DNA of 47,263 bases, from IMG/VR virus record IMGVR_UViG_3300006789_006867, positions 1 through 47,263 of that record; one strand, written 5' to 3'. This document shows, in pieces, positions 9,938-35,497 of this stretch. The notes below the pieces were generated by a model. That model worked only from the letters and a program-made list of their open reading frames with translations. It did not search any database and had not been told where the DNA came from. This DNA is from a virus. The translations under genes and the position numbers were made by a program. The stretch's first letter is position 1. The number at the start of each line of letters is the position of its first letter.

Positions 9938-9954
9938 CTGATATAGGAGATCAT

Positions 9955-15195: not shown

Positions 15196-15209
15196 ATTGG
15201 AGAAGTACA

Positions 15210-16499
15210 TTGAAAAAAATTAAAATAATGACAATAAGCGACATGCCGTTGTCTCCATCTGGTGTGGGCACTCAAACTAGGTATGTTATTGAGGGGCTTT
15301 TACGTACCGGCAAATATAAGGTAATTAGCTTAGGTGGAGCTATTAAGCACCCTCATAATAAGCCCATCAAAACGGAAGAGTACAAAGATGATTGGGTAAT
15401 ATTTCCTGTTGAAGGATATGGGAATCAAGAGATAGTCAGATCTATGATTCGTAATGAGAAGCCTGATATTCTTTGGTTTATGACAGATCCTCGCTTTTGG
15501 GGGTGGTTGTGGGAAATGGAAAATGAAATCCGTCCTCTTATGCCGATGGTTTATTATCATGTATGGGACAACTATCCTTACCCCACATATAATAAGGCAT
15601 ATTATGAGTCAAATGATTTTATTGCTGCAATCTCTAAAGTTACTGATGATATTGTAAAAACTGTCGCTCCAAATGTTATGAGTCAATACGTGCCTCATGC
15701 TGTAAATTCAGATATATTTCGAAATTTAAAAAATGATTCAAACTATTCTAAGTCTAATGCAAGAAAAGAGATGTATAGCATCTTTCCAGATCTAGAAGAA
15801 GACGACATACAAAACAAATTTATTTGCTTTTGGAACAATAGAAACGCCAGACGTAAACAAAGTGGTAGTTTATTATTTTGGTTTAAGAAATTTTTAGATA
15901 AGGTTGGACATGATAAAGCAACGTTAATAATGCACACAGAACCCAAAGATCATCATGGACAGGATCTTATTAAGATTGTTGAACACTTGGAACTACAAGA
16001 TGGACAAGTACTGTTTTCAACTCAAAAAATGCCACCAGAACAGCTAGCTGGATTTTATAACGCAGTCGACTGCACGATCAATATATCAGATGCTGAAGGG
16101 TTTGGTTTATCTACTCTGGAATCTCTATCATGTGAGGTGCCTATTGTTGTTAATATGACAGGCGGTTTGCAAGAGCAAGTGACAGATGGAGAAAATTGGT
16201 TTGGTATTGGGATTGAACCATCCTCAAAGTCGATCATTGGTTCACAAGAAATTCCATGGATTAGAGAAGATAGAATTAATGAAGATGATTTCATTAATGC
16301 GCTGATAAAAATATATGAAATGAAGTCCGAAGAAAGAGAGCAGCTTGGCGCAAAAGGAAGACAACACGTAGTTGAAAACTATAATTTTGCAAAATATGTA
16401 AAAACATGGGATGAACTACTTACAAACCTTCATACTGAATTGGGTTCGTGGGAGACTCGCCGGGGCTATGCTAACTGGCATTTAGAGGAGCTTAAATGA
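15210..16499 (+). CDS. Glycosyltransferase family 4-like (GT-B)
   Basis: TTG 15210 is chosen as start (429 residues) because GGAG at 15199-15202 precedes it by 7 bases and the frame then lies after the upstream stop; ATG 15228 is an alternative. The N-terminal domain begins KIMTISDMPLSPSGVGTQTR, the nucleotide-sugar glycosyltransferase opening with a Gly-rich loop. The C-terminal domain has EGFGLSTLE (Glu296 and Glu304), the EX7E motif of retaining GT4 enzymes, followed by GGLQEQV. No membrane segment, so cytosolic. First gene of the glycan cassette; overlaps the next gene by 4 bases. Donor and acceptor unknown. Confidence 0.85.
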   Translation: MKKIKIMTISDMPLSPSGVGTQTRYVIEGLLRTGKYKVISLGGAIKHPHNKPIKTEEYKDDWVIFPVEGYGNQEIVRSMIRNEKPDILWFMTDPRFWGWLWEMENEIRPLMPMVYYHVWDNYPYPTYNKAYYESNDFIAAISKVTDDIVKTVAPNVMSQYVPHAVNSDIFRNLKNDSNYSKSNARKEMYSIFPDLEEDDIQNKFICFWNNRNARRKQSGSLLFWFKKFLDKVGHDKATLIMHTEPKDHHGQDLIKIVEHLELQDGQVLFSTQKMPPEQLAGFYNAVDCTINISDAEGFGLSTLESLSCEVPIVVNMTGGLQEQVTDGENWFGIGIEPSSKSIIGSQEIPWIREDRINEDDFINALIKIYEMKSEEREQLGAKGRQHVVENYNFAKYVKTWDELLTNLHTELGSWETRRGYANWHLEELK

Positions 16500-17779
16500 A
16501 AAAAATAATAGTTAGAGGACCGGTATTAACTAGAACTGGATATGGGGAGCATGCTAGATTTGTTTTACGCTCTTTGAGAACGGTAGAAGATAGATATGAT
16601 ATTTATGTAATGCCTGTAACTTGGGGAAAGTCCAATTGGATTTGGGAAGATAATGAGGAAAGACAATGGTTAGACGCTTTAATAAAGAAGACAGCACTCT
16701 ATCAACATAAAAATGGTACTTATGATGCTAGCATACAAGTGACAATTCCAAATGAATGGCAAAAAATGGCTCCTGTTAATATTGGAGTTACTGCGGGTAT
16801 AGAGACAACCAGAGTATCCCCTGATTGGATCCAGAAGACTCATGAAGTTGATAGAATGGTTGTGGTTTCAAACCATTCTAAAAATGTATTTGACAATACA
16901 GCATATGAAGCAGTAAATAACGAAACAGGAGAAAAGCTGCTTCTACAAAACTCTGTTCCAATCGATGTTGTGCATTACCCAGTTAAAAAATATAAAAAGA
17001 TTGATTTAGATTTTAAACTTGACACTCCTTTTAACTTTTTAACCGTGGCACAGTGGGGACCAAGAAAAAATATGCCGAACACTGTTAAGTGGTTTGTTGA
17101 GGAGATTTTTGACAATCCAGAAGTTGGTTTGGTTGTTAAGACGTTTAAGAAGGGAGGATCTGTATTAGACAGAAAGTCAGTAACCAATTCTTTGCAAACA
17201 ATTTTAGAAAAATATAAAGATAGAAAATGTAAAATTTATTTATTACATGGCGATTTGAAAGAACAAGAAATGCATTCTCTTTACAAGCACCCTAAAATAA
17301 AGGCTTTTATTTCTTTAAGTCACGGTGAGGGTTTTGGCTTGCCGCACTTTGAGGCTGCATATTCAGGATTACCAGTTATAGCTCCAGAATGGAGTGGATA
17401 CACAGATTTTCTTACTATGCCTGTAAAAGACAAAAAAGGAAGAATTAAGAATAAGCCACACTTTGTTCGTGTTGAATACGATTTGAAGCCTATTCAGAAA
17501 GAGGCTGTGTGGAAAAGCGTGTTAGAGGAAGATTCAATGTGGTGCTACCCGCAGCAAGGGAGCTATAAGATGAGACTGCGCGAAGTATATAAAGATTTTG
17601 GCAGATTTAAAAAACAAGCCAAGGACTTGCAATCGTGGGTATTAGAGAATTTCTCTGAAAAGAAACAATATAGCAAATTTGTAGAATCAATCGATTCTGT
17701 AAACATATTTGATTCTCAAGAATCTGTTGAAGATGAGATAAATACAATGTTTGATGAATTATTACAAAAGAGTGAGTAA
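16496..17779 (+). CDS. Glycosyltransferase family 4-like (GT-B)
   Basis: The protein has 427 residues and its ATG overlaps the upstream TGA (ATGA). It opens KKIIVRGPVLTRTGYGEHAR, again with a Gly-rich donor-side loop. It has VGVTAGIETTRV-like strands near residue 100, a FLTVAQWGPRKN linker strand, and GEGFGLPHFEAAYSGLPVI with the EX7E pattern in the second domain. It is a relative of the preceding enzyme, similar in length and layout but clearly diverged. Probably adds a sugar in the same glycan. A family 4-like call is safe; the sugar is unknown. Confidence 0.83.
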   Translation: MKKIIVRGPVLTRTGYGEHARFVLRSLRTVEDRYDIYVMPVTWGKSNWIWEDNEERQWLDALIKKTALYQHKNGTYDASIQVTIPNEWQKMAPVNIGVTAGIETTRVSPDWIQKTHEVDRMVVVSNHSKNVFDNTAYEAVNNETGEKLLLQNSVPIDVVHYPVKKYKKIDLDFKLDTPFNFLTVAQWGPRKNMPNTVKWFVEEIFDNPEVGLVVKTFKKGGSVLDRKSVTNSLQTILEKYKDRKCKIYLLHGDLKEQEMHSLYKHPKIKAFISLSHGEGFGLPHFEAAYSGLPVIAPEWSGYTDFLTMPVKDKKGRIKNKPHFVRVEYDLKPIQKEAVWKSVLEEDSMWCYPQQGSYKMRLREVYKDFGRFKKQAKDLQSWVLENFSEKKQYSKFVESIDSVNIFDSQESVEDEINTMFDELLQKSE

Positions 17780-17781
17780 AA

Positions 17782-19416
17782 GTGATAATATTTGTATCTG
17801 ATCTTTTCGGAGAACAGTATAATAAAGGCGGTGCCGAGCTAACAACGCGAGCTATAATTAAAAGCTCTCTCTTTCCTTGTGGGTTCACCAGGCTCAATTC
17901 ATTTAATCCAAAGTTGTTATCTATTATGAAAGAATATAAACACGCATTTTGGGTGTTTGGTAATTTTTCTCTAGTTTCAGCTGAGTGTCTAATGTACGCA
18001 ACTAAGAATTTAAACTATAGCGTATTAGAATATGATTATAAATATTGCCGGTTTAGATCTCCAGGGAAACACAAGTCAGAAGAAGGTGAATGTGATTGTT
18101 CTACGCACTCCATGGCAAAATTAATTTCTATGTTTTTGTATAATGCAGATATTACATGGTGGATGTCTCACAAACAATTAGAGATCTACCAATCAGAGTA
18201 TCCTTTTTTAAGAAATGATAATAATAGAGTTTTAAGTTCTGTTTTTGCAGATAAAACTTTGGATTATATAGAGTCTTTGGACACTTCTAACAAAGAAGAT
18301 ACGTGGTTGATATTGAATTCTAAATCATGGGTTAAGGGCGTTGAAGACGCTGTAGAGTATGCTGTAGAGAATAATTTAAATTATGAATTGGTTTGGGGAC
18401 TTGAACATTTTGATCTTCTAGAAAAATTGGCAAAATCAAAAGGTATCATCTTCTTTCCCCGCGCTGATGATACATGTCCAAGAATGACGATTGAAGCTAA
18501 ATTGTTGGACTGTGAGATGATATTGAATGAGCATGTACAACATAAAGATGAAGATTGGTTCACCAACAAACATAGCGCCATAAAATATCTAAGGAAGAGT
18601 ACTAAAAGATTTTGGAATGAAATAGAAAAAACGGCGCAGCAATCTACAAATATACCAGTTTGTGAAGCTGTTGAAAACCCCAACCCTCCAAAATTTAAAT
18701 TTATAATCCCATTTTACAACTGTGAAGAGTGGATATCTAAAACCATAGGAAGTCTTAAAAGACAAAAATATGAGAAATTTGATTGTGTCTTAATTGATGA
18801 CATTTCAACAGATAAATCTGTTGAAGTAGTTAAACGTAGTATAGAAGGAGATGCGCGATTTTCTTTGATAGAGAATAGTGAAAAGAAGTATGCTCTTGCC
18901 AATATCGTGCTAGGGATCGAACAGACTAATTGCGACGATGATGATGTGATAATCTTGTTGGATGGTGATGATTGGTTGGCGTCTACTAGAACGTTAACTA
19001 AACTTTGTAATGTGTATGTGGGTGACACATTGATGACATATGGGAGTTATGTACTTAGTCCAGAAGGCTTAAGAGGTCCAGAACCCTCACAATACCCAGA
19101 AAGGGTGATTAGAGACAATGCTTATAGAAAAGATCAGTGGAGAGCCTCTCACCTAAGAACGTTTAAGCACAAGCTGTGGAGGCAAATCAAACATGAAGAT
19201 CTTAAAGATGCATCTGGAAACTATTATGAGATGACATATGATCAAGCCATAATGCTCCCACTGTTGGAAATGGCTCAAGAACGCGCCAAATTTATTCCAG
19301 AGGTGCTTCATGTATATAACAAAGAAAACCCTCTTAATGTTGACAAGATTAAAGCTAAAAAACAGTTTGAGTTAGCACAAGAAATTAGAGGTAAGCAATC
19401 ATATGAAAGAATATAA
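17782..19416 (+). CDS. Bimodular glycosyltransferase: GT-B-like N-terminus plus GT2 C-terminus
   Basis: The protein has 544 residues with GTG 17782 as start, two bases after the previous stop. Residues 1-290 look like a GT-B protein: IIFVSDLFG then a NKGGAELTTR loop, and ARADDTCPRM-type ribosome-like strands near residue 225 reading IIFFPRADDTCPRMTIEAK. Residues about 300-520 are a GT2 (GT-A) domain: FKFIIPFYNCEEWISKTIGS, VLIDDISTD and ILLDGDDWLA, whose DGDD is the metal-binding DxD. Two catalytic modules in one chain suggest sequential addition of two sugars. The N-terminal module lacks a clear EX7E, so it may be weak or accept a different donor. Confidence 0.75.
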   Translation: MIIFVSDLFGEQYNKGGAELTTRAIIKSSLFPCGFTRLNSFNPKLLSIMKEYKHAFWVFGNFSLVSAECLMYATKNLNYSVLEYDYKYCRFRSPGKHKSEEGECDCSTHSMAKLISMFLYNADITWWMSHKQLEIYQSEYPFLRNDNNRVLSSVFADKTLDYIESLDTSNKEDTWLILNSKSWVKGVEDAVEYAVENNLNYELVWGLEHFDLLEKLAKSKGIIFFPRADDTCPRMTIEAKLLDCEMILNEHVQHKDEDWFTNKHSAIKYLRKSTKRFWNEIEKTAQQSTNIPVCEAVENPNPPKFKFIIPFYNCEEWISKTIGSLKRQKYEKFDCVLIDDISTDKSVEVVKRSIEGDARFSLIENSEKKYALANIVLGIEQTNCDDDDVIILLDGDDWLASTRTLTKLCNVYVGDTLMTYGSYVLSPEGLRGPEPSQYPERVIRDNAYRKDQWRASHLRTFKHKLWRQIKHEDLKDASGNYYEMTYDQAIMLPLLEMAQERAKFIPEVLHVYNKENPLNVDKIKAKKQFELAQEIRGKQSYERI

Positions 19417-20362
19417 CAATTTTAATTTTTTAATTGAAAATTATAGTGTCGGACTACAGGATGACATGTCGACATCCATTCACTCTATAAATGGAGATAG
19501 TCCTTCACTATCTTCAACAGAAAAAACTTTGTATTTGTTGTGGAATCATATAAGCAACAAATTGCTAACAGATAAATTGTTGAGCACAGACTTTACTTTA
19601 GAAAAAGAAAAATTTAATAATTTTTGGAACAAAATAAAGGGTACCCCATCACCTAGCAGAGCTATGGGTGACATGTTTTGGATGAACTTGCCTTGGGGTG
19701 ATATAAAGAAAAATTTAGGAGAAGTCAATATATTGGATATTGGTTGCGGTACCGGTGGGTATTGCAAGAAACTGCAGAATTGGTCTAATGGCATTATAAC
19801 TTCATATAAGGGCTTGGATATATATCAATCTCCTAAGTGGCATGACAACATTAGCTGGGGTAAGGAAAAGGATATTAATGTAAGCTTCGAACAGGCAAAT
19901 CTAGATAGTGATGCAATATTTGATATCCCAACAAATATAAACTTTCTCATGTCTCAGTCTGCGATTGAACATATAAAAAACGATTTAGGTACATTTAAGC
20001 AGTTAAAGAAGTTTATGTATCAAAAGGACGAGCCTTGTATACAAGTGCACCTTTTCCCAGGTCCAGCTTCTCTTGATTTATACCTTTTGCACGGATATAG
20101 ACAATATGGAGATTTTGCAATAAATAAAATAGTTGACTTGTTTAGTGATTGTGATGTAGAATTATATAAAATATGCGGAGAGGCTTCTAATAAATTGCAC
20201 TTTGACTACATTACAAAGCCAATATATTTAGATAATTTGGGGGATAAAAGAAATTCTAATCCTGAACAATATAGAGAATTGCTGCACGCTGCGTTATTAA
20301 CAGATCTGCAAAAAGAGATAGAAAATCCTGCCTTTTGGGCATTAAAAATCTACAAAGGATGA
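19403..20362 (+). CDS. SAM-dependent methyltransferase
   Basis: The protein has 319 residues and overlaps the previous gene by 14 bases. Motif I of class I methyltransferases is VNILDIGCGTGGY near residue 115, then YKGLDIYQS as the acidic strand-2 end, and NFLMSQSAIEHIKND as the post-motif region. A long N-terminal extension precedes the Rossmann domain. Its location inside the glycan cassette suggests O- or N-methylation of a sugar, possibly a cap on the chain. A small-molecule or protein substrate cannot be excluded. Confidence 0.75.
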   Translation: MKEYNNFNFLIENYSVGLQDDMSTSIHSINGDSPSLSSTEKTLYLLWNHISNKLLTDKLLSTDFTLEKEKFNNFWNKIKGTPSPSRAMGDMFWMNLPWGDIKKNLGEVNILDIGCGTGGYCKKLQNWSNGIITSYKGLDIYQSPKWHDNISWGKEKDINVSFEQANLDSDAIFDIPTNINFLMSQSAIEHIKNDLGTFKQLKKFMYQKDEPCIQVHLFPGPASLDLYLLHGYRQYGDFAINKIVDLFSDCDVELYKICGEASNKLHFDYITKPIYLDNLGDKRNSNPEQYRELLHAALLTDLQKEIENPAFWALKIYKG

Positions 20363-20364
20363 AT

Positions 20365-21273
20365 ATGAATATTCATTTTGAAAATGTCAACACACAGAGC
20401 ACCTCTGGACCAAACCACTTCGCTTCTAAATTGATTAAATATATAGATGCGGACACCGATGGCTCTAAAAAGCCAGATGCTAGGTTGTGTTTTATAGAAT
20501 CTCAAAGAAGACAGTTTGATGATGTGCCGCTATTCCAGAGGTTAGATGGAATCTACTTTAATAAGGCACAAGACTATAAAAAGCAGAATAGAAATATAAA
20601 GAGAACTTATGATAATGCAGATGGGGTTATATTTCAGTCTGAGTTCAACAAACAGCTTATAACTAAATATTTTGGAGAACACAAGAATTCTACTGTCATA
20701 CACAATGGTGCTGATGTAGAGCATATTGAATCAATCAAGCCCTTGCGAGGGATGCTGGATAATTACGAACATGTTTGGTGTTGTGCTTCGTCTTGGCGTC
20801 CTCACAAAAGGTTGAATGAAAATATCAAATATTTTTTAAAGCATTCTTCGAAAAATGATTGTTTGGTTGTTGCTGGAGGAAACCTTGAATATCTTGAACA
20901 AGCAAAAATTGCGAGAACTCCTAATCTTTTTTATGTTGGCGAACTAAACATAAGGTATCTTACCGCTCTCTATAAACGCGCAGATTATTTTATCCATTTG
21001 GCTTGGCTCGATCATTGTCCTAACGTGGTTGTTGATGCACGCGCTAGCGGGTGCCAAATTATATGTTCTTCTGCTGGTGGAACAAAAGAAATAGCTGGAT
21101 TAGATGCGGTTGTAATTGAAGAAGATGAGTGGGATTTTGAGCCGGTTGAGTTATATAAACCACCTAAGATGGATTTTTATAAAAAGGTGAAAAATAATAT
21201 TGAAGTAGATTATAATATGAAAACAGTTGCAGAGAAGTACAGGAACTTTATAAAAGAGACAATTAATGAATAA
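20365..21273 (+). CDS. Glycosyltransferase family 4-like (GT-B)
   Basis: ATG 20365 is preferred (302 residues) because AAAGGA at 20354-20359 is correctly spaced; ATG 20359 and TTG 20335 are alternatives. The N-terminal domain is short. The middle reads NADGVIFQSEFNKQLITKYF and STVIHNGADVEHI, typical of family 4. The C-terminal part has RADYFIHLAWLDHCPNVVVD, where the usual EX7E glutamates are replaced by Asp-His-Cys-Pro, then GGTKEIAGLDAVVIEED. The final 40 residues are consistent with a closing helix. It is slightly shorter than most family members. Sugar unknown. Confidence 0.8.
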   Translation: MNIHFENVNTQSTSGPNHFASKLIKYIDADTDGSKKPDARLCFIESQRRQFDDVPLFQRLDGIYFNKAQDYKKQNRNIKRTYDNADGVIFQSEFNKQLITKYFGEHKNSTVIHNGADVEHIESIKPLRGMLDNYEHVWCCASSWRPHKRLNENIKYFLKHSSKNDCLVVAGGNLEYLEQAKIARTPNLFYVGELNIRYLTALYKRADYFIHLAWLDHCPNVVVDARASGCQIICSSAGGTKEIAGLDAVVIEEDEWDFEPVELYKPPKMDFYKKVKNNIEVDYNMKTVAEKYRNFIKETINE

Positions 21274-21415
21274 TGCAGAAATATTATCATGGGTTGAATG
21301 GGAAAAACATTCTACTTTAGAAGAAAAGGCTATTCTAAATCTTAATGAATTAATAGTTCCAAATGCTGCTAGTGGAAATCCGAATCATCAAGTCGTGATT
21401 TATGGAAAGTTATGA
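21266..21415 (+). CDS. Putative 49-residue peptide bridging two glycosyltransferase genes
   Basis: An ATG at 21266 lies inside the end of the previous gene. The 49-codon frame stops at TGA 21413-21415, overlapping the next start (ATGA). This end-to-end coupling fills the only gap in this part of the cassette and matches the style of neighbouring genes. The peptide is acidic and helical first (EILSWVEWEKHSTLEEKAI), then has a Pro/Asn-rich end. It has no homology I recognise; it could be the remains of a larger gene. Confidence 0.5.
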   Translation: MNNAEILSWVEWEKHSTLEEKAILNLNELIVPNAASGNPNHQVVIYGKL

Positions 21416-22407
21416 TTATGAAAGTTTTGTTTGTTTCCAACAACCGTGATATTAGCGTTGGTTCTTATAGAATTTGGGTTAATGATTTAAATGATTATTT
21501 TCGTGATTGTGGATATCAATCTGAGATAGCAACCAATAAGACAGATGTATTAGATTATGATGTTGTTATCTGCGGCAAAAACGATGTTGCAACTGCCATT
21601 GGCATTAAGAAAGCATATCCAAATAAGAAAGTGGGTGTTATAAATTTGGCAGCCGACGCTAGAAACCTACCAATAGACTTTGTAATTGTTGGCTCCATAG
21701 AAGAGATGGATAGTTTATCTCATTATAAGAATGTGTTCCTTTTTCCTTTGATTGAAAAAATGTATCAAGGCGATGACTATAAAACTCATTCTAAGAAATC
21801 TAGGTTAAGGATAGGTTTTCATGGACATTATCCGCATTTAAGCAAGTTTGCGCCTAATCTTAAAAGAGCTATAGAAGAGGTTAACAAAGCGTGTGATATA
21901 GAATTGTTTGTTGTGACGTCCAACACATCATTTAAATGGAAGGTTGGAAAACCAAATATTGAAAACATTATTATGAAACCGTGGAACATTAAAACCATAA
22001 AACAAGATTTGTTAAGTTGCGATATTGGTATTGTTCCCAATGTGACTCATATACCATTGGACTTAAGCAAGCATAAAACCTCTACAGATCTTGGTTTATA
22101 TAACACGGATTTTATAGTGAGAATGAAAAACAAATCTAATGCAGGTAGGGCTTTTGTTTTCCATCAATTGGGGATCCCTGTGATTGCTGATTTTACTCCT
22201 AGTAATTTTCATATTATGGGTGATCCTGAATGCGGGATTATTGCAAACAACTACGAAGGCTGGAAAAAAGGTATATTAAAGTTACAAGACTTTAGATTAA
22301 GGCAAAAAATGGCAGATCGCGCAAAGAGAGAATTTGATAAATTATATAGTCCATATGCATGGGCTTCTAAATTGTATAATGACATATTGGGGATAAGTTA
22401 TGAATAA
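21412..22407 (+). CDS. GT-B fold glycosyltransferase-like protein
   Basis: The protein has 331 residues; ATG 21412 overlaps the stop of the 49-residue frame, and ATG 21418 is equally possible. It starts KVLFVSNNRDISVGSYRIWV, the donor-side beta-strand and loop of GT-B enzymes. It continues with VVICGKND and VIVGSIEEM strands, RIGFHGHYPHLSKFAP at the second domain start, LSCDIGIVPN, and NKSNAGRAFVFHQLGIPVIA in the donor-binding region. No clean EX7E. It is a probable glycosyltransferase of a divergent family. Overlaps the next gene by 8 bases. Confidence 0.65.
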   Translation: MIMKVLFVSNNRDISVGSYRIWVNDLNDYFRDCGYQSEIATNKTDVLDYDVVICGKNDVATAIGIKKAYPNKKVGVINLAADARNLPIDFVIVGSIEEMDSLSHYKNVFLFPLIEKMYQGDDYKTHSKKSRLRIGFHGHYPHLSKFAPNLKRAIEEVNKACDIELFVVTSNTSFKWKVGKPNIENIIMKPWNIKTIKQDLLSCDIGIVPNVTHIPLDLSKHKTSTDLGLYNTDFIVRMKNKSNAGRAFVFHQLGIPVIADFTPSNFHIMGDPECGIIANNYEGWKKGILKLQDFRLRQKMADRAKREFDKLYSPYAWASKLYNDILGISYE

Positions 22408-23143: not shown

Positions 23144-23144
23144 G

Positions 23145-28669: not shown

Positions 28670-28670
28670 T

Positions 28671-29564
28671 ATGAAAAAAATGAAAATCTATATTGTGACT
28701 TATAAGCGCTCTGACATACTAAATGATACGTTGGAGAAGCTTTTTGCTTCGGATTTTTCAAGTATTCCAAATACAGAGGTTAATATTATTAACAATCATT
28801 CTGAGTTTTATTTAAAGCCAGAATATGAAAACAAGGTTAACGTACTACACAATGTTTTGCGCCCCGATTGGTCAAATGGAAATCTAGCAGAAAACTGGAA
28901 CCAAGCTTTAATCAACGGTTTTAAAAGTCTTAATAAGCCTGATTGTGAGTATGTGGTTACATTACAGAACGATACATCGGTGCACCCTAATTGGTATAGC
29001 AATCTGATGAAGATGCATGAGAAGTTTAATTTTGTGGTTGGAAAATATGGAGACAATTTGGTTAGCTATACACCTGAAGCTATTAAAAATATTGGCATGT
29101 GGGATGAAAACTTTTTTGGTGTGCAATATAAAGAAGCAGATTACTGGATTAGGGCGCTTATTTTTAATAAGGAAAAATCATGTATTAATGATACGCTTCA
29201 TGGTTTAGAATTAAACAATGAGAGTGCGTTAGAGTTGGATACCATTATCGACAGGAATTTTATAGAAGAGCCTGGATTCGCTGGTGATCACACTTTAAAA
29301 AGAAGAGCAGATGACGCGGAGCATCAAAGTATATGGAAAACCCGAAGTGGGATATATAAGGAATATTCTTGGAACTATTTTTATACAAAGTGGAGTGGAA
29401 CGTGGAAATCTAACCCCACAAAGCAAGGTTGGGTAAAGAATTGGAGCGGCGAGTTTATAAGCAATCCCCCGGATATAAGAAGCTCGCGCATTAAAAATGT
29501 GATAAAATATCTGTATTTCGAAAAGGATATAAAGAATCTAGATTTAAAAAATTATTTGGTGTAA
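28671..29564 (+). CDS. GT-A fold glycosyltransferase (GT2-like)
   Basis: ATG 28671 is preferred (297 residues), one base after the previous stop; a TTG six codons upstream is the alternative. It opens MKIYIVTYKRSDILNDTLEK, the GT2 beginning. It continues TEVNIINNHSEF, WNQALINGFKSLNK and CEYVVTLQNDTSVHPNW, where QNDTS takes the place of the DxD. The C-terminal 100 residues are rich in Trp and Tyr and may bind the acceptor or membrane. The sugar is unknown. The phosphatase gene follows after one base. Confidence 0.72.
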   Translation: MKKMKIYIVTYKRSDILNDTLEKLFASDFSSIPNTEVNIINNHSEFYLKPEYENKVNVLHNVLRPDWSNGNLAENWNQALINGFKSLNKPDCEYVVTLQNDTSVHPNWYSNLMKMHEKFNFVVGKYGDNLVSYTPEAIKNIGMWDENFFGVQYKEADYWIRALIFNKEKSCINDTLHGLELNNESALELDTIIDRNFIEEPGFAGDHTLKRRADDAEHQSIWKTRSGIYKEYSWNYFYTKWSGTWKSNPTKQGWVKNWSGEFISNPPDIRSSRIKNVIKYLYFEKDIKNLDLKNYLV

Positions 29565-29565
29565 T

Positions 29566-30183
29566 ATGAGTGTTGAATTAGTTATATTCGATTTAGATGG
29601 TGTCTTGGTTGATGCATGTGAGTGGCATCGAGTTGCTCTAAACGAAGCTTTAAAAGAGGTGTGCAATTATGAAATTTCTTTAGAAGACCACTATAACAAA
29701 TATAATGGGCTTCCAACAAAAGTTAAACTAGCAGCACTCACAGAGATAAATATATTAAGTGAAGATGAGCATATAGATGTTTATGATTTAAAACAAGAAA
29801 AAACGAAAGAAATTATTGAATCCAATGCAAAAATTAGGCAAGAAAAAATTGATTTATTAGAATGGTTGGTTCAAGATAAAAATTTGAAAGTCGCATGTTT
29901 TACAAACAGCATTAGAGAAACAGCATATATGATGTTAGATAAAACTGGTATTTTGAATTATTTCGACATGGTACTAACCAATCAAGATGTTGAAAAACCT
30001 AAACCAGATCCAGAGGGTTATATAAAAACACTTAAAGAACTTGATATTTCTAACAAGAACACTATAATAGTGGAAGATTCACCCAAAGGTTTACAAGCAG
30101 CGAAAGAGTCTGGATGCCATGTAATTTCTGTTAAAAATGCTGATGAAGTGACAATTGAATTGTTTAAAGAGGTTTTAAAATGA
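29566..30183 (+). CDS. HAD phosphatase, beta-phosphoglucomutase type
   Basis: The protein has 205 residues. Motif 1 is IFDLDGVLVDACEWH (nucleophile Asp and general acid Asp), followed by a helical cap region. Motif 2 is VACFTNSIRETAYMML, the Lys is in VEKPKPDPEGY, and motif 4 is TIIVEDSPKGLQAAKESGC. The length and cap are typical of the beta-PGM/phosphatase subfamily. It would dephosphorylate or isomerise a sugar phosphate. It overlaps the following nucleotidyltransferase gene by 4 bases, so both may work on the same sugar. Confidence 0.88.
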   Translation: MSVELVIFDLDGVLVDACEWHRVALNEALKEVCNYEISLEDHYNKYNGLPTKVKLAALTEINILSEDEHIDVYDLKQEKTKEIIESNAKIRQEKIDLLEWLVQDKNLKVACFTNSIRETAYMMLDKTGILNYFDMVLTNQDVEKPKPDPEGYIKTLKELDISNKNTIIVEDSPKGLQAAKESGCHVISVKNADEVTIELFKEVLK

Positions 30184-30896
30184 AAATATTGATTCCAATG
30201 GCTGGCGAAGGAAGTAGGTTTGTCAAGGAAGGTTACACCTTCCCAAAGCCGCTTATTGATGTTAATGGAAAGCCCATGATTCAAAAGGTTGTAGAAAACT
30301 TAGATTTTGATTGTGAATATATTTTTTTGATTCGAAAAAAACATGTCGAAGAATATGAAGGTTTGTTGGGCACACTTTCACAAATAACAAACAATAATTT
30401 TAAATATCTTGTTGTTGACAAATTAACTGAGGGTGCAGCATGTACCGCATTGTTAGCTAGAGAATATATAAATAATGATGATGATTTACTTATTGCTAAT
30501 TCAGATCAATATGTTGATTACGAGTCAGAGAACTTCAGATCATTGAAGAATTTAACCAATTGTGATGCAATGGTATTTACTTTTAATGCAGTGCACCCTA
30601 AATGGTCTTTTGTCAAAACGAACTCTAGAGGATTCATTACAGAAGTTGCCGAAAAAAAGCCAATATCCAATATTGCAACATGTGGGATTTATTGGTACCG
30701 CCATGGTTCTGATTTTGTAAAATATGCAGAACAAATGATTGAAAAAGATATTCGTGTTAATAATGAGTTTTATATAGCTCCAGTTTATAACGAGTTAATA
30801 GCTGATGGCAAAACTCTTATTCCATTTTATGTGCACAAGATGTGTGGTCTTGGCACTCCCGAAGATTTAAGATCTTTTTTGGAGAACTATAAGTGA
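30180..30896 (+). CDS. Sugar-1-phosphate nucleotidyltransferase
   Basis: The protein has 238 residues. The signature MKILIPMAGEGSRFVKEGYTF followed by KPLIDVNGKPMI is the G-x-G-x-R ... K-P motif of nucleotidyltransferases that make NDP-sugars. LIANSDQYVDY gives the metal-binding Asp strand, and TCGIYWYRHGSDF and NEFYIAPVYNEL are typical later segments. There is no acyltransferase extension. With a GmhA-like isomerase and HAD phosphatases nearby, an HddC-type heptose guanylyltransferase is one candidate, but glucose- or mannose-type substrates are also possible. It ends with a GTGA overlap into the next gene. Confidence 0.85.
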   Translation: MKILIPMAGEGSRFVKEGYTFPKPLIDVNGKPMIQKVVENLDFDCEYIFLIRKKHVEEYEGLLGTLSQITNNNFKYLVVDKLTEGAACTALLAREYINNDDDLLIANSDQYVDYESENFRSLKNLTNCDAMVFTFNAVHPKWSFVKTNSRGFITEVAEKKPISNIATCGIYWYRHGSDFVKYAEQMIEKDIRVNNEFYIAPVYNELIADGKTLIPFYVHKMCGLGTPEDLRSFLENYK

Positions 30897-31345
30897 TTTT
30901 GATATCTCACAGAGGCAACGTTAATGGCAAGAATCCAGAAAGAGAAAATTCTCCTGATTATATTTTAGAGGCTATGAAATCCGGCTACAATGTGGAGATA
31001 GACGTTTGGTATAAAAACAATTGCTTGTATCTTGGTCATGACAAGCCTGAATATAAAATAAATATTTCTTTTTTAAACAACGATAAACTGTGGTGTCATT
31101 GTAAAAATCCGGAAGCATTGGCGAAATTGATTAATCCTCGGCCACCTCAAGAGATACATTGTTTTTTTCACAAAACAGATGACGTTACTTTAACATCTAA
31201 AGGATATATGTGGGGTTTTCCTAAGAAGAGAATATTAAAAGGTTCAATTTGTGTGCTTCCGGAAGTCGCACAATATAAAAAGGAAGATATTCAACAATGT
31301 GTTGGGATATGTAGCGATTATATTGAAAACTATGAAGATTTTTAA
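30893..31345 (+). CDS. GDPD-like phosphodiesterase-type protein
   Basis: The protein has 150 residues; GTG 30893 overlaps the upstream TGA. It starts MILISHRGNVNGKNPERENS, then YNVEIDVWYKNNCLYLGHD. The His-Arg-Gly, Glu-Ile-Asp and later His patterns match the metal site of glycerophosphodiester phosphodiesterases (HRG ... E-x-D ... H). It is shorter than the usual 240 or so residues and ends where the TIM barrel would continue, so it is a compact or partial version. Such short forms occur in bacterial capsule and LPS loci. Enzyme activity is not assured. Confidence 0.68.
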   Translation: MILISHRGNVNGKNPERENSPDYILEAMKSGYNVEIDVWYKNNCLYLGHDKPEYKINISFLNNDKLWCHCKNPEALAKLINPRPPQEIHCFFHKTDDVTLTSKGYMWGFPKKRILKGSICVLPEVAQYKKEDIQQCVGICSDYIENYEDF

Positions 31346-32003
31346 AGAAGAAATATGTAATTTAAGTAGATTGCCATTTGCTATTGGTGATAATCCTTGT
31401 TACTTAACGGCGTTGCAATTGCTAAAATCTAATCAAACATTAGAGAATACTGTTTTGCATGATCATTATAAATCTTTTAATTTAAAGACACTATATGACA
31501 TTTACAACGTTGGTGAAAATTTAAAGCGATATTCTTATAAATCTATTTTTCTTCCATGGATTCATACAAGCCCCGTCACAGAGTTTGTGGATGTTGCTTT
31601 TATGCGACGAGATAAAAAATTTATTGATGCACAAATAGATAAAATGAAAAACCTTGTCTTATCTATTAAAGAATTTGGGTATACGCCAGATGCTTTTTTA
31701 GATAGGAAAAAAGGTCATATTACTGGATATTTTTTAGAGAATCACACAGGAAAAAATTTTTATGTAGTCAGTGGCAATCATCGTGTGGCAACATTGTCTG
31801 CTTTATTTCCTGATTTGCCCATACCGGTTGTTTATGAGGAACAGAAACATTTGAAACCGCGAGATAAAAAAAACCGAATTGAACCACCGCGCAAAATATA
31901 TAGTTCTAAAAATGTTGATAAATGGCCATCTGTTACAAGTGGTTTTCTAGATGAGTATGTTGCTATAAAAATTATGGAGAGATATATAAATGGAATATCA
32001 TAA
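31332..32003 (+). CDS. ParB-like (NHR-motif) protein of the glycan cassette
   Basis: ATG 31332 is chosen (223 residues), overlapping the previous gene by 14 bases; the longer frame to 31251 would extend far into that gene. The segment FYVVSGNHRVATLSALFPDL (residues about 140-160) carries the Gly-Asn-His-Arg pattern of ParB/sulfiredoxin-type folds, which in some members use CTP or ATP. The rest is alpha/beta with a basic, Pro-rich C-terminus. Proteins with this motif appear in polysaccharide loci, but the role is unknown. Confidence 0.5.
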   Translation: MKIFKEEICNLSRLPFAIGDNPCYLTALQLLKSNQTLENTVLHDHYKSFNLKTLYDIYNVGENLKRYSYKSIFLPWIHTSPVTEFVDVAFMRRDKKFIDAQIDKMKNLVLSIKEFGYTPDAFLDRKKGHITGYFLENHTGKNFYVVSGNHRVATLSALFPDLPIPVVYEEQKHLKPRDKKNRIEPPRKIYSSKNVDKWPSVTSGFLDEYVAIKIMERYINGIS

Positions 32004-32676
32004 ATGGATACAACAGAAAGTCTCAGATTTATCCAAAAAGGAAGATTGGAATCATCAATATAATCTCCCAGGTTTAATAAAAACAAGAAAAACCGATATT
32101 AATAGTCCGGGGTACAATATCAACAAATGGGCTAGATTAAATCCAATAATAGATAAGTTAAATTTAAAAGGAAAAAAAGCTTTGGACATTGGATGCAGCG
32201 ACGGTTATTATTCTGTAAAATGCGCAATGGATTATGATATGCAAGTTGTTGGAATAGATCCAGATCCATTGAGAATCGAAAGGGCGAATTTCATAAAACA
32301 AATATTTAAGCTTGATAATGTCCAATTTGAAGTCGGGGATTTATATGAGTTAAAAGAAAACAAAAATTATGATATGATTTTAGGGTTGGGATTATTACAT
32401 AGAATACCAAACGTGCTACAATGTTTACAAAAAATGTCTAAACTTTCAAATTTATTAATCTTAGAGTTTAAAACATACGATTCGTTAGATGATCTTTGTG
32501 TCTCTGGGGGACATAAAAGTAAATCTAATAAATATAATAAACTTCACTCAATTCCAACACAAACATATGTTAATAATAGAATGAAAGAATTAGGATTCAA
32601 TAACAATACATTTTATAATGATGAAAGTCATTTAAATTATAAAAGAACAATTCTTGTTTCTTCAAGGGAAAAATAA
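31990..32676 (+). CDS. SAM-dependent methyltransferase
   Basis: The protein has 228 residues and overlaps the previous gene by 14 bases. Motif I is KALDIGCSDGYYSVKCAM near residue 63 and motif II VVGIDPDPLRIERANF. Post-I segments are FEVGDLYEL and YDMILGLGLLHRIPN. The layout resembles the CmoB-type/UbiG-like Rossmann methyltransferases. The long N-terminal segment before motif I contains NSPGYNINKW. A sugar or lipid acceptor is likely from the neighbours; a tRNA substrate is possible but less so. Confidence 0.78.
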   Translation: MEYHKWIQQKVSDLSKKEDWNHQYNLPGLIKTRKTDINSPGYNINKWARLNPIIDKLNLKGKKALDIGCSDGYYSVKCAMDYDMQVVGIDPDPLRIERANFIKQIFKLDNVQFEVGDLYELKENKNYDMILGLGLLHRIPNVLQCLQKMSKLSNLLILEFKTYDSLDDLCVSGGHKSKSNKYNKLHSIPTQTYVNNRMKELGFNNNTFYNDESHLNYKRTILVSSREK

Positions 32677-32680
32677 TATC

Positions 32681-33529
32681 ATGAAAAATGCTGTATTTGA
32701 TAAGTATAAGGACTTACATAAAGGCGAAAGAGTATTTCTTATTGCCAATGGACCAAGCTTGGCGAATACGAATTTAAACCTTCTTAAGAATGAAAATACA
32801 ATTGCTATGAATCGTATATCTCTTATATATGATAAAAACCCAGAATGGAAGCCTACGTATTATTTGTTTTCGTCTACTAATGTTAGACACCCAGAGTGGG
32901 GCAGGGCGTGGACAGGCTCTGTTCGTAACGCTGTGAAAGAATCAGACACGACGTCTTTTATTGCAAAAATGTTTAAGCCCACAATTGATTCAAATGATGA
33001 TTACCCGCATATTAATTGGTTTGATTCTATGAGTGAGAGGAAACCGCCCATGGATGGTAGAATATCAGAAACATGTTTTTCTACAGATATTGTCGAACGG
33101 ATAGATAAAACCGGCACGACAATGAATCTAGCTTTACAATTAACATACCACATGGGTTTTAGTGAGGTTGTGATTGTTGGAGCAGATTTGGGTTGGACTG
33201 GCGATAGAGGTAGCGAAAGTGATCCAAATCATTTTGACAAATCATATCGAGCAGATATTCCTCATGAAAAGCTTTATAAAATCAATCATCAGATGAGAAA
33301 TGTACATTCTTTAGCATTAAAGAATTTCATAGAGAGAGGCAGAGATACAAAGTTTTACAATGCATCGCTAAAAACTTACTTAGATGTATACCCAATTATA
33401 GATTATGAGAAATATATTTTGAACAATGAGGTAGTGTTGCAAGAAAACAGACTTAAAAGCGCGAAACAATTTTGGGATATGCCACCACAATTTTTTGAAG
33501 GAGGAGAAGAAAAATGGCTAGATGCTTAG
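32681..33529 (+). CDS. DUF115/MptE-like protein (Maf-type glycan gene)
   Basis: ATG 32681 is chosen (282 residues); a TTG nine codons upstream overlaps the previous gene. Residues about 12-45 read KGERVFLIANGPSLANTNLN then LLKNENTIAMNRIS. This GNGPSLxxxDLxxL ... AxNR pattern is typical of the DUF115/6-hydroxymethylpterin pyrophosphokinase MptE-like fold and of Maf glycosyltransferases that add pseudaminic acid to flagellin. GFSEVVIVGADLGWTG closes the core strand. In glycan loci such proteins are thought to transfer or process nonulosonic acids, which would suit the CMP-sugar genes here. The assignment to a reaction is inference. Confidence 0.66.
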   Translation: MKNAVFDKYKDLHKGERVFLIANGPSLANTNLNLLKNENTIAMNRISLIYDKNPEWKPTYYLFSSTNVRHPEWGRAWTGSVRNAVKESDTTSFIAKMFKPTIDSNDDYPHINWFDSMSERKPPMDGRISETCFSTDIVERIDKTGTTMNLALQLTYHMGFSEVVIVGADLGWTGDRGSESDPNHFDKSYRADIPHEKLYKINHQMRNVHSLALKNFIERGRDTKFYNASLKTYLDVYPIIDYEKYILNNEVVLQENRLKSAKQFWDMPPQFFEGGEEKWLDA

Positions 33530-34398
33530 TAACAGGACATAGAGGATACATTGGTTCCCATTTGTATGAAACATTACAAGAATTGGGACACGAAGTGCAA
33601 GGAATTGATTTATTTGAGGGGCATGATATTAATAAAGATCTTCGCGAATACAATGAACCAATGCGTGGAGATTTTCACCCACATTATTTTAATTTCAAGC
33701 CTGAATATATTTTTCACTTAGCGTGCTTTCCCAGGGTAACATATAGTGTGGAAAACCCTGTTCGAACAATGGAAAATAATGTTTTATGTACAAGTAATAT
33801 ACTTAATTTTGCAAAACATGTTGGCGCAAAGCGTGTAATATATTCTAGTTCTTCATCAGTTGTTGGCGATGGAGATGGACCAACAAACCCATATGGGTTA
33901 CAAAAGCTAGTTAGTGAAATGGAGTGCAAGCTTTATTCAGAGCTTTATGGAATTGATACTGTTAGTTTGCGTTATTTTAATGTTTATTCGGAAGATCAGG
34001 AAGCAGATGGTCCATATGCTACTGCAATTGCGAATTGGATGAAATATATTCGAAAAGGCAAGACTCCCTTTATTACAGGTACCGGAGAACAACGAAGAGA
34101 TATGTTGCACGTTTCTGATGCTATCAGTGCAAACATATTTGCAATGGAGCGCGACGATAAATTCAATGGAGCGCATTTTGATGTTGGAACTGGCGACAAT
34201 ATTTCTTTAAATGAAGTGAAGGATATTGTTCAAAAATACTTCACCGATATTGCATTTGAGTATATAGAAGAAAGACAGGGCGATGTCATGGTAACGTTAG
34301 CAGATGTTTTACCTTTGCAAGACTTAGGTTGGAAGGCGGAAATCGGTGCAGAAGCTGGTGTTGATAGATGTTTTAAAAAGTTGTTTTGGGAATTTTAA
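33514..34398 (+). CDS. NAD-dependent nucleotide-sugar epimerase (GalE-like)
   Basis: The protein has 294 residues; GGAGGAG precedes ATG 33514, and the gene overlaps the previous one by 16 bases. It opens ARCLVTGHRGYIGSHLYETL (GxxGxIG). IFHLACFPRVTYSVENPVRT is the substrate-side loop and the active site is NPYGLQKLVSE, with Tyr and Lys. RYFNVYSEDQEADGPYATAI and GEQRRDMLHVSDA complete the GalE/WbpP signature. It likely epimerises UDP-glucose/galactose or the N-acetyl forms. Confidence 0.9.
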   Translation: MARCLVTGHRGYIGSHLYETLQELGHEVQGIDLFEGHDINKDLREYNEPMRGDFHPHYFNFKPEYIFHLACFPRVTYSVENPVRTMENNVLCTSNILNFAKHVGAKRVIYSSSSSVVGDGDGPTNPYGLQKLVSEMECKLYSELYGIDTVSLRYFNVYSEDQEADGPYATAIANWMKYIRKGKTPFITGTGEQRRDMLHVSDAISANIFAMERDDKFNGAHFDVGTGDNISLNEVKDIVQKYFTDIAFEYIEERQGDVMVTLADVLPLQDLGWKAEIGAEAGVDRCFKKLFWEF

Positions 34399-35268
34399 AT
34401 GAGAAAAACTAATATTGGTATAGTTGGACAGGGTTTTGTTGGCACAGCTGTGTACGAAGGGTTTAAGGGTGTCCGTGGTGTACATGTTGATACGTATGAC
34501 AAGTTCAAAGCACGCGCATCAACATGTACATCTTTGCAACAACTAAGTCAACAAGCTGGTATAATTTTTATATGCCTTCCAACACCGATGAAGCGAAATG
34601 GTGTATGTGATTTATCTATTGTAACAGACACAATAATGAAGTTGGATAGTTATAATAACGACAATATTGCAGTGATTAAATCTACAGTCCCTCCTGGGAC
34701 AACTGAAAAGTTTAACCAAGAGTGCAATAATTTGAAAGTTATTTTTAATCCTGAATTTTTAACTGAAGCAAATTTTGTTGAAGATTTTAAAAATCAAACA
34801 AGAATTATAATTGGTGGACCTAGACCAGCATCAACAAAAGTAAAAAATCTTTATAGAAAAGCATTTCCAGAAACGACATTGGTGAAAACTGGTTCAAATA
34901 CAGCTGAGATGGTGAAATATTTTACCAATTGTTTTCTTGCAACCAAAGTTAGTTTTTCTAATGAAATCAAACAAATATGTGAAAAAATTAATGTAGACTA
35001 TGATAAGATAGTAGAATATGGTTTATATGACAAGCGTTTAGGTAGATCCCATTTTTCTGTTCCAGGTCCAGATGGTAAGTTTGGTTTTGGTGGTTCGTGC
35101 TTTCCAAAGGATTTAAATGCGATGATAAAATATGCAGAGAATCTAAATATAAATCCGGCGGTATTAAAAGCTGCGTGGAATAAAAACTTGGAAGTACGCC
35201 CAGAAAGAGATTGGGAAGCGCTTGAAGGTAGAGCCATTAGCAAAGAAGGAGAAATTAATGAGCGATAG
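34399..35268 (+). CDS. UDP-glucose/GDP-mannose 6-dehydrogenase family, short form
   Basis: The protein has 289 residues and starts directly after the previous stop. The NAD-binding loop is NIGIVGQGFVGTAVYEGF. The middle has IFICLPTPMKRNG, VIKSTVPPGTTEKF and FNPEFLTEANFVEDF. Catalytic Cys234 lies in FGFGGSCFPKDLNAM. The chain ends soon after and lacks the C-terminal UDP-binding domain of standard 390-430 residue enzymes, so donor binding may be altered or provided by another subunit. It would produce a UDP-uronic acid, the natural precursor for the DUF579-like methyltransferase in this cassette. Last gene of the cassette. Confidence 0.87.
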   Translation: MRKTNIGIVGQGFVGTAVYEGFKGVRGVHVDTYDKFKARASTCTSLQQLSQQAGIIFICLPTPMKRNGVCDLSIVTDTIMKLDSYNNDNIAVIKSTVPPGTTEKFNQECNNLKVIFNPEFLTEANFVEDFKNQTRIIIGGPRPASTKVKNLYRKAFPETTLVKTGSNTAEMVKYFTNCFLATKVSFSNEIKQICEKINVDYDKIVEYGLYDKRLGRSHFSVPGPDGKFGFGGSCFPKDLNAMIKYAENLNINPAVLKAAWNKNLEVRPERDWEALEGRAISKEGEINER

Positions 35269-35497
35269 AGAAGTAAACATGTCAGATCAGGCTGTGGGGG
35301 CTGTTATGATGGCTCTGCAGAAAAGCTTAATGGAGCAAAGTGATATTGTTCCTGTTTTAAAAGAGTTCAGATTTAGAACCTCGGATCAGGGGCTGGTAGT
35401 TATGAACCCGCCATTGGTTAAGTTTAATGATGAGTTTGAAGAGAATTTGCAACAGCAATCATTTGATTTTGACACTGTTGACACCCAATCGGAATAA
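35258..35497 (+). CDS. Conserved small T4-type phage protein
   Basis: ATG 35258 is chosen (79 residues), preceded by AAGGAGA; a longer frame from 35222 overlaps the previous gene without a ribosome site. The N-terminus MSDREVNMSDQAVGAVMMAL followed by QKSLMEQSDIVPVLKEFRF resembles small proteins I recall next to the late sigma factor gene in marine T4-type phages. There is no catalytic motif. It marks the return to the phage core gene order after the glycan cassette. Confidence 0.6.
   Translation: MSDREVNMSDQAVGAVMMALQKSLMEQSDIVPVLKEFRFRTSDQGLVVMNPPLVKFNDEFEENLQQQSFDFDTVDTQSE

Follow-up and report, generated by a model that had tools for sequence, protein, structure and literature searches.

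A glycan island in T4-type phages combines two constant glycosyltransferase genes with exchangeable sugar cargo and may serve virion glycosylation

Maf and FlmG glycosylate flagellin in the cytoplasm with CMP-nonulosonates. FlmG flagellin glycosylation is among the subjects of PMC7591256, and in mycobacteriophages, according to parts of PMC12619734 that describe Freeman (2023), glycans occur on capsid and tail tube subunits; those parts do not mention a sugar-synthesis cassette of the size reported here. For large marine phages, sections of PMC7029224 interpret glycan islands as tools directed at the host surface. There, the pelagimyophage HRC appears as a big, hypervariable, glycosyltransferase-rich island of marine T4-like phages with a proposed glycan role, similar to the island described here, and its LPS-type genes include a UDP-glucose dehydrogenase, as ours do. 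However, the same sections place the HRC between VrlC and gp14 together with tail fibre genes, whereas our island extends from a nuclease gene to the region of gp55, and a scan of 23 of its ORFs yielded no match to a tail fibre family. A constant pair of GT4 genes at this site further sets it apart. Among the matches listed in the openly licensed PMC literature, we found no description of this island or of a phage GT29 enzyme.

The window, the whole stretch of DNA analyzed, comprises 47,263 nt of an uncultured T4-type phage (IMGVR_UViG_3300006789_006867). The original prediction of a 20-kb glycan locus on such a phage held: 24 ORFs, all on the + strand and mostly overlapping, fill positions 15186-35268 between a PD-(D/E)XK (Cas4-like) nuclease gene and a gp55-type sigma factor region. 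Twenty-two ORFs came from the gene list, to which we added 30893-31345 and a 49-aa ORF at 21266-21415. Between the nuclease and gp55 genes, 26 of 27 junctions measure between -95 and +3 bp, and the sole larger one, 138 bp, is occupied by the 49-aa ORF. When the other 23 ORFs were scanned against Pfam, 20 had a family match with E≤0.01 and 16 exceeded the curated cut-off; three (starts 21412, 30893, and 31251) matched no family. The features are listed with coordinates, strand, description, and evidence.

14416..15195, +, PD-(D/E)XK (Cas4-like) nuclease (w15), left anchor; PF12705, 8.5e-16
15186..16499, +, GT4 glycosyltransferase (w16), constant gene 1; PF00534, 6.5e-13; EX7E motif
16496..17779, +, GT4 glycosyltransferase (w17), constant gene 2; PF00534, 1.6e-6; EX7E
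17782..19416, +, protein with C-terminal GT2 domain (w18); PF00535, 4.7e-20; DGDDW
19403..20362, +, SAM methyltransferase-like protein (w19); PF13489, 1.5e-5, under cut-off
20335..21273, +, GT4 glycosyltransferase (w20); PF00534, 2e-8
21266..21415, +, 49-aa ORF in the sole apparent gap; translation; convincing homologue in none of three loci tried
21412..22407, +, probably a glycosyltransferase, judged from context (w21); no Pfam family; accompanies w22-w26 in other viruses
22400..23143, +, GT8-like/nucleotide-diphospho-sugar transferase (w22); PF03407, 6.7e-6; LDTDT
23145..23726, +, IRX15/GXM-type (glucuronoxylan methyltransferase family) protein (w23); PF21729, 2.1e-34
23723..24472, +, predicted GT29 sialyltransferase-fold glycosyltransferase (w24); PF00777, 1.8e-12; predicted structure
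24469..25155, +, CMP-sugar (nonulosonate-type) cytidylyltransferase (w25); PF02348, 4.8e-14
25155..25865, +, HpcH/HpaI pyruvate-type aldolase (w26); PF03328, 4.2e-18
25834..26853, +, D-2-hydroxyacid dehydrogenase (w27); PF02826, 5e-44
26853..27746, +, SDR nucleotide-sugar epimerase/dehydratase (w28); PF01370, 1.6e-34; YxxxK
27743..28669, +, SIS-like isomerase fused to a HAD-type domain (w29); SIS 0.0073, under cut-off; SSSG, DFDGVIH
28653..29564, +, GT2-like glycosyltransferase (w30); PF00535, 9.3e-5, just under cut-off
29566..30183, +, HAD phosphatase/phosphomutase-like protein (w31); PF13419, 9.6e-34
30180..30896, +, sugar-1-phosphate nucleotidylyltransferase-like protein (w32); PF12804, 3.1e-5, under cut-off; GlmU/RmlA-type models from 3e-14, under cut-off
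30893..31345, +, glycerophosphodiesterase-like by eye (w32b); no Pfam family; homologues accompany w26 in other viruses
31251..32003, +, ParB-like by eye, true start likely an internal ATG (w33); no Pfam family; homologues in L223 and L251
31990..32676, +, SAM methyltransferase (w34); PF13847, 5.5e-16
32654..33529, +, MptE-like/DUF115 protein, possible second CMP-sugar transferase (w35); PF01973, 3.5e-9
33514..34398, +, SDR UDP-sugar 4-epimerase-type protein (w36); PF01370, 2.1e-44
34399..35268, +, short UDP-glucose/GDP-mannose dehydrogenase (w37); PF00984, 8.7e-26, and PF03721, 2.2e-21, C-terminal domain not matched in Pfam; GGSCFPKD
35222-35497, 35501-35758, and 35755-36078, +, three small genes, right anchor; the second a zinc ribbon, PF09723
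36059..36763, +, gp55-type late sigma factor; phrog_234, E 6.8e-4, a weak PHROG match

The cassette had also been expected to include CMP-sugar chemistry, and w25 bears this out. It matched a PDB CMP-NeuAc synthetase (1.8e-12) and, under cut-off, the PseF model (6e-22), and represents the CMP-sugar cytidylyltransferase component of the NeuB-type nonulosonate pathway; the NeuB condensing enzyme had no match among the 23 cassette ORFs scanned. The aldolase w26 carries EHG, QIE, and GPYDLS, which are mostly invariant across 15 aligned sequences. A genome scan with two peptide patterns, which hit 29 stretches of which 2 were kept, placed its relatives in only two contigs, both archaeal MAGs, and since the scan depended on these patterns, wider bacterial relatives may be missed. 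The nearby w29 matched phrog_1238, "phosphoheptose isomerase" (7e-13), yet the match covers its C-terminal HAD-like half. Together with w29 or w30, w24, w25, and w26 recur in other viruses. Much of the block is also present in a different T4-like lineage (G052), and w30 reaches 78% identity in a T4-like lineage other than that of the window. As G052 contains no w16 match within 200 kb, the block can work without the GT4 pair.

From its sequence and predicted structure (pLDDT 85), w24 is a GT29 sialyltransferase-fold glycosyltransferase. In a fold search, the 14 best VIA matches were animal sialyltransferases (ST6Gal1, ST3Gal1, ST8SiaIII, and ST6GalNAc2, all of which we take to be GT29 enzymes), with Z scores of 12.7-14.3; for ST6Gal1, Z was 14.3 and rmsd 3.2 over 198 aligned residues. 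The GT42 enzyme Cst-I, at Z 12.7, was level with the lowest of the 14. Like GT29 sialyltransferases, w24 contains Sialylmotifs L and S (IDQHDVVVRIN and PNTGF...YGF), whose core residues are invariant in seven aligned sequences including that of the window. His205 is also invariant (7/7), but the Glu at +5 is missing from the window protein, leaving HxxxxE, presumably motif VS of GT29, unmatched. The protein further differs from these enzymes in being phage-borne, only 249 aa long, and without a membrane anchor. When the GT29 alignment was compared with PDB profiles, designed PPR proteins ranked first; we took their repeated weak stretches as chance matches. A soluble phage GT29 enzyme beside a CMP-sugar pathway would bear on sialyltransferase-fold enzymes outside eukaryotes and is a possible enzyme source.

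A possible second CMP-sugar transferase, w35, matched phrog_4603, an alpha-2,3-sialyltransferase (2.7e-5), and in an archaeal MAG its homologue lies ahead of w25-w26-w27 homologues. Compared with the GT29 alignment, its profile reached a probability of 9%. Its only PDB profile match, 5mu5, was not significant (E 0.73); 5mu5, which we take to be a Maf enzyme, has 666 residues versus 291 for w35. A structural route was dropped, as the DUF115 model was too poor (pLDDT 49) and the fold search was uninformative.

Whether the cassette is a variable island was examined in 50 viral records that had been picked for gp55 or the nuclease, 48 of which contain gp55. The 46 islands analyzed leave out G001, which is the same phage as the window, G022 and G033, in which gp55 was not matched, and G038, whose nuclease and gp55 are on opposite strands. 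Both GT4 genes, the w16 and w17 homologues, were present in all 46, and the nuclease lay immediately upstream of the pair in all 41 relatives whose fetched span contains it. The first small right-anchor gene (35222-35497) was present in 43 of 46. Among 65 nuclease loci followed by 3.2 kb or more of sequence, 64 likewise had the nuclease and then both GT4 genes; three of these loci belong to the same phage as the window. Outside the 46, G022 (L098) and G033 (L120) showed this order as well; in G038 (L133), the nuclease has no GT4 pair behind it, but a w16 homologue (64%) lies ~13 kb away.

Behind this constant start, the cargo is swapped. Islands ranged from 2.4 to 27.7 kb (40 measured, some of them as estimates based on gp55 when the small gene at the right had no match), and four of the 46 hold the GT4 pair and little or nothing else. 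The site is a swappable island in which differing sugar gene sets follow the same two glycosyltransferase genes. The cargo count left out G009, G010, G012, and G028, which had no anchor. Of the 568 cargo genes encoding 120 aa or more, 145 were drawn and one was lost at a piece boundary; the resulting sample of 144 contained NeuB in six and CTP_transf_3 in four, indicating that acidic ulosonates recur among relatives.

The window ends short of gp23, so the T4-type assignment by gp23 rests on relatives: PF07068 scored above cut-off in 12 of 13 records, the single miss being a 64.5-kb fragment, and in all eight long (>180 kb) records from the gp55 and nuclease scans. In the window itself, the weak gp55 match agrees with the T4 type. 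Cyanomyoviruses, the comparison originally offered, proved not to be the closest. By the capsid of a relative and by the island, the nearest annotated phages are Flavobacterium phage immuto, Microcystis phage Mel-JY01, and Rhodothermus phage RM378, which places the phage near their branch; with the relative's capsid closer to immuto than to cyanophages, we set aside cyanomyovirus or pelagimyophage kinship as a frame. A megablast of 15000-39000 against annotated phages found no DNA similarity. In immuto (NC_055915) and Mel-JY01 (PP395634), the anchors have the order seen here, and the nuclease and both GT4 proteins are homologous to w15-w17 (25%-35% identity); in immuto, the GT4 genes are gp181 and gp180. 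The cargo of immuto is annotated as aminotransferases, a methyltransferase, an epimerase, and glycosyltransferases. Unlike the window island, the stretches read in these two phages contain no GT29, cytidylyltransferase, or aldolase homologue. In Mel-JY01, a GuaB gene separates the nuclease from the glycosyltransferases, the first of which is split, and in both phages the gp55 homologue is farther from the nuclease-glycosyltransferase region than here. RM378 has a w16 homologue only; the gene downstream of it gave no match to w17, and a nuclease match was not found nearby.

Two constant glycosyltransferase genes followed by differing cargo suggest that the phages put changeable glycans on their own particles. 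The same arrangement, a constant two-gene start and swappable cargo without export genes, also points to a protein of the phage itself as acceptor. The start is shared by phages whose hosts belong to different phyla with no obvious common surface acceptor, while virion proteins are inherited with the phage, which favors a virion acceptor. We therefore consider the chances even that the island, with its constant start, is a phage-owned system that glycosylates virion proteins in the cytoplasm and attaches an exchangeable glycan, at times an acidic one. Against this reading speak the lone w16 match in RM378, the G038 nuclease without the pair behind it, the G052 block without a w16 match, and the late-promoter octamer TATAAATA, which was not enriched (8 found versus 6.3 expected). 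Among the outcomes originally envisaged, a glycosylated virion would fit best.

In such a system, the GT4 pair would initiate the glycan on an acceptor that the phage encodes, probably one of its virion proteins; cargo enzymes would then extend and cap it. Two branches are present in the island. The CMP-sugar branch, next to the GT29 sialyltransferase-fold enzyme, comprises the cytidylyltransferase, HpcH/HpaI aldolase, and SIS/HAD protein; the dehydrogenase, epimerase, and GXM-type methyltransferase form the UDP-sugar branch. In the window phage, the cap could be an acidic keto-deoxy sugar, with the pyruvate aldolase replacing NeuB or KdsA, a route that to our knowledge is unlike the known NeuB and KdsA routes. 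Transfer of such a CMP-activated ulosonate to protein by a soluble enzyme, as proposed here, would resemble Maf and FlmG. A changeable coat of this kind would protect particles or adjust how they adsorb. More tentatively, it is possible that T4-type phages across this branch, with hosts in several phyla, prime a phage protein with the GT4 pair while an exchangeable cassette writes the outer glycan, here a GT29-like cap with a CMP-activated keto-deoxy acid made by the aldolase route. If so, "serotype" cassettes would pass between phages much as they do between bacteria. The cultured members immuto and Mel-JY01 make the virion-acceptor reading directly testable.

A different target, the host surface, seems rather unlikely to us: during infection, phage enzymes would alter host LPS or capsule by soluble transfer onto intermediates that the host exports, thereby blocking competing phages. 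Such remodeling is suggested for glycosyltransferase-rich pelagimyophage islands in sections of PMC7029224. O-antigen loci typically contain the same epimerase, CMP-sugar, and aminotransferase families, and the w18 GT2 domain matches the PHROG "GtrB-like" (2.2e-9). However, the GT4 pair is constant across phages of different host phyla, and the islands lack a flippase, polymerase, ligase, or GtrA-like protein. A hydropathy scan, crude but finding seven segments in E. coli K-12 Wzx and six in Wzy, predicted no membrane segments in the 24 window ORFs; among 617 cargo genes of relatives, 599 had none, 17 had one, one had two, and none had three or more. Thus, no Wzx/Wzy-type flippase or polymerase and no GtrA flippase or membrane Gtr was seen in the islands, and Pfam likewise found no Wzx/Wzy-type protein in the 23 window ORFs. 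Serotype conversion, one of the outcomes first suggested, loses ground, its membrane parts being missing from the island, and the description "unusually complete" stands for sugar supply and transfer only, since the window island shows no exporter, polymerase, or ligase. As soluble glycosyltransferases can use host lipid-linked intermediates that the host exports, missing membrane genes are compatible with host-surface targets.

T4 glucosylates hydroxymethylcytosine, and the GT4 pair and cargo could glycosylate phage DNA against restriction. T4 kinship, the cytoplasmic look of the enzymes, and an island that begins next to a nuclease gene are consistent with this idea. We nonetheless consider DNA glycosylation improbable, and less likely than virion-protein glycosylation: a dCMP/dUMP hydroxymethylase of the thymidylate synthase family (PF00303) was found in none of 10 long records other than the window, of unknown completeness (the control was positive in 9 of 14 genomes), and 20 kb of varied sugar chemistry would be excessive for a base mark. 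A TET/JBP search (0/13) was uninformative, as its control was also silent. Separately, a PurZ/Z-genome idea for 1477-2502 was dropped because PurA models scored better (281 versus 131 bits, all under cut-off).

A captured bacterial O-antigen locus without selected phage function, or an assembly chimera, shares enzyme families with this island but is very improbable, since catalytic motifs are intact where checked rather than decayed, the site and GT4 pair recur in 46 relatives, aldolase relatives appeared in only two archaeal MAG contigs in the pattern-limited scan, island G+C (34.6%) resembles that of the flanks (35.8% and 39.6%), and both junctions recur in another contig (IMGVR 3300025133_009446; 99.991% over 22,501 bp), so the chimera first raised as a concern is not what we found. 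The left part of the region is also present in two further contigs at 99.986%; the matching contigs could come from related samples.

The window, a linear IMG/VR fragment of 47,263 bp, carries an island of 24 ORFs on a single strand (15186-35268, +). Between the nuclease gene (w15) and gp55, 26 of 27 junctions overlap or are at most 3 bp, and the one larger junction is occupied by a 49-aa ORF. The original prediction of some two dozen tightly packed genes is thus borne out. Profile searches also agreed with the sugar functions it had proposed, CMP-sugar chemistry included: of the 23 island ORFs scanned, 20 matched a Pfam family (E ≤ 0.01), and in 16 a match exceeded the curated cut-off.

Island gene content (15186-35268, +) by Pfam
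GT4 glycosyltransferases, three
GT2 glycosyltransferases, two (one slightly below cut-off)
GT8-like glycosyltransferase, one
GT29 glycosyltransferase, one
MptE/DUF115 protein, one
Methyltransferases, three (one of GXM type, one below cut-off)
CMP-sugar cytidylyltransferase, one
HpcH/HpaI aldolase, one
2-hydroxyacid dehydrogenase, one
SDR epimerases, two
SIS/HAD protein, one (weak)
HAD phosphatase, one
Sugar nucleotidylyltransferase, one (weak)
UDP-sugar dehydrogenase, short, one

Catalytic motifs were present in 19 of 20 scripted pattern checks on island ORFs; w34 missed its motif pattern despite a strong Pfam match. The UDP-sugar dehydrogenase lacks a C-terminal domain match, and 22 of 25 members of its cluster are equally short. 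As the motif GG.CF.KD is kept in just 18 of the 25, the gene may be incomplete or its product inactive in some relatives. Assembly chimerism was ruled out, since contig 3300025133_009446 contains 14315-36815 at 99.991% identity; the left part of the region is in two further contigs (99.986%). ARAGORN reported a tRNA-Tyr (ata) within a methyltransferase gene (19433-19517, -), which Rfam did not report at gathering scores and which is probably spurious.

We compared the island with the same site in relatives, using the best 80 of 596 loci from a gp55 scan and the best 80 of 90 from a nuclease scan. Fifty records were examined for gp55, one being the window's own phage, and the region was fetched for 46 relatives. 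All 46 contained homologues of both GT4 genes that open the island (w16 and w17), and the order nuclease-GT4-GT4 was found in all 41 whose fetched span takes in the nuclease. Among 65 of the 80 nuclease loci, those with at least 3.2 kb downstream, both GT4 genes came within 4 kb after the nuclease in 64 (three from the window's own phage; this set overlaps the 46 relatives). In the sole exception, record G038, the nuclease gene and gp55 are encoded on different strands; the record also contains a w16 homologue (64%), at another place. The w16 homologue of another relative (G053:C1:31904-33202, 59% identity) contains an in-frame TAA and is a broken, mis-sequenced or recoded copy.

The remaining genes, or cargo, vary, as expected of the variable island that had been suggested. 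Measured in 40 relatives, the interval between the nuclease and the small conserved gene beyond the cargo is 2.4-27.7 kb long (20.0 kb in the window), and in four relatives the island is little more than the GT4 pair. The cargo of 38 relatives comprises 617 genes in 272 clusters, 188 of which occur in a single relative. Among 144 cargo genes sampled at random, the matches listed (25 of 115 families) included 18 epimerases, 10 GT2 enzymes, eight DegT aminotransferases, six NeuB proteins, five UDP-sugar dehydrogenases, five FkbM methyltransferases and four cytidylyltransferases. At the tblastn threshold used, w18, w36 and w37 matched 26, 25 and 20 of the 46 relatives; w24, w26 and w29 each matched one, and w25, w30 and w35 none. 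An APS kinase in one relative's cargo (L174, 11306-12037) hints at sulfated glycans.

The same start is recognizable in cultured phages. Flavobacterium phage immuto has a nuclease (26% identical to the window's) and two glycosyltransferases (34% each) in the same order, followed by a GT2, aminotransferases, a methyltransferase and an epimerase. Microcystis phage Mel-JY01 has a nuclease (25%), GuaB, a glycosyltransferase split in two and another glycosyltransferase (30%); Rhodothermus phage RM378 has one glycosyltransferase homologue (27%) and then a gene for which no match was found. Of 50,697 phage records, gp55 matched only six (four of immuto, Mel-JY01 and an unannotated 484-kb phage); w16 matched these six, RM378 and three synechophage records. 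The capsid protein gp23 was found in 12 of 13 records; the eight long records drawn from the gp55 and nuclease scans all have it. The gp23 of one relative, G015, gave its best matches, at 42-52% over aligned parts, with the 484-kb phage, immuto, Mel-JY01, RM378 and a second phage that lacks annotation; cyanophages reached about 33%.

Hypervariable, glycosyltransferase-rich islands are described for pelagimyophages (PMC7029224), so this kind of island is already known. The literature matches listed contain no description of the site, of the constant GT4 pair, of the clade or of the CMP/GT29 block.

The CMP-sugar block has a distribution of its own. Aldolase relatives occur at 28 viral loci, three from the window's own phage. 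One, L251, has 18 window genes in the same order (including w20-w26, w29-w30 and w33-w36), and seven contigs (L233, L234, L235, L237, L238, L239 and L243) carry w21-w26 and w30-w32b homologues rearranged, with w30 homologues at 72-78%; some contigs of this set end early. L237 is a 200-kb record (G052) whose gp23 is just 28% identical to the window group's in its best segment and in which no w16 homologue was found, which suggests that the block has travelled between lineages of T4-like phages. A pattern-limited scan of the genome collection placed the aldolase in two contigs, both archaeal MAGs. L253 has consecutive DUF115, cytidylyltransferase, aldolase and 2-hydroxyacid dehydrogenase homologues (2845-5814); L252 has adjacent aldolase and dehydrogenase homologues, with a cytidylyltransferase homologue 2 kb upstream (7454-11625 for the whole stretch). 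These are true archaeal loci or mis-binned viruses.

The GT29 protein of this block, w24, contains sialylmotifs L and S. Its AlphaFold model (pLDDT 85) best matches animal sialyltransferases (ST6Gal1: Z 14.3, rmsd 3.2, 198 residues), with GT42 next. It had one weak match among the 50,697 phage records. Twenty-three bacterial GT29 sequences have been published (PMC5811610), and the words "phage" and "virus" are absent from the available text of that paper. The homologue in L237 (4831-6429; also L233 and L234) lies inside a 532-aa ORF that starts with a 2-hydroxyacid dehydrogenase-like match; in L235 it is a separate 253-aa ORF.

For w26, w29 and w25 we infer a common sugar product: the SIS/HAD protein (w29) would provide or dephosphorylate a sugar, the aldolase (w26) would add pyruvate and the cytidylyltransferase (w25) would activate the result. 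In a crude scan with a control, no island protein examined had at least three membrane segments, so transfer is probably cytoplasmic or reliant on host export. What is glycosylated is best explained, with roughly an even chance, as virion protein: the constancy of the GT4 pair across phages of unlike hosts argues for an acceptor made by the phage. Glycosylation of the host surface ranks second and is rather unlikely. DNA glycosylation ranks third and is improbable; PF00303 was absent from 10 of 10 records. A candidate virion acceptor is gp23 itself. Its Pfam match is split in two in 11 of 12 records, indicating an insertion that could be an acceptor site. The gp23 frames of relatives outside G052 span 585-660 aa (e.g., L256, 190-1989).

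Four genes upstream of the island are also of note.
1477-2502 (+): adenylosuccinate synthetase
9624-9940 (+): one-piece tmRNA gene (Rfam, 108.5 bits; tag ANDNVELDYALAA)
10741-11478 (-): trypsin-like protease, N-terminus lipoprotein-like by eye
13296-13973 (+): zincin-type metallopeptidase, two genes ahead of the nuclease gene

PurZ was rejected for the synthetase: PurA models outscored PurZ, all below cut-off. M90 and ATLF Pfam matches to the metallopeptidase were sub-threshold, and the protease is the sole minus-strand entry of the window's gene list. Phage tmRNAs are known but rare, at 2.3% of genomes in a survey reported in PMC9004378; a search of 50 viral records, one of them from the window's own phage, gave a tmRNA above cut-off in 26.
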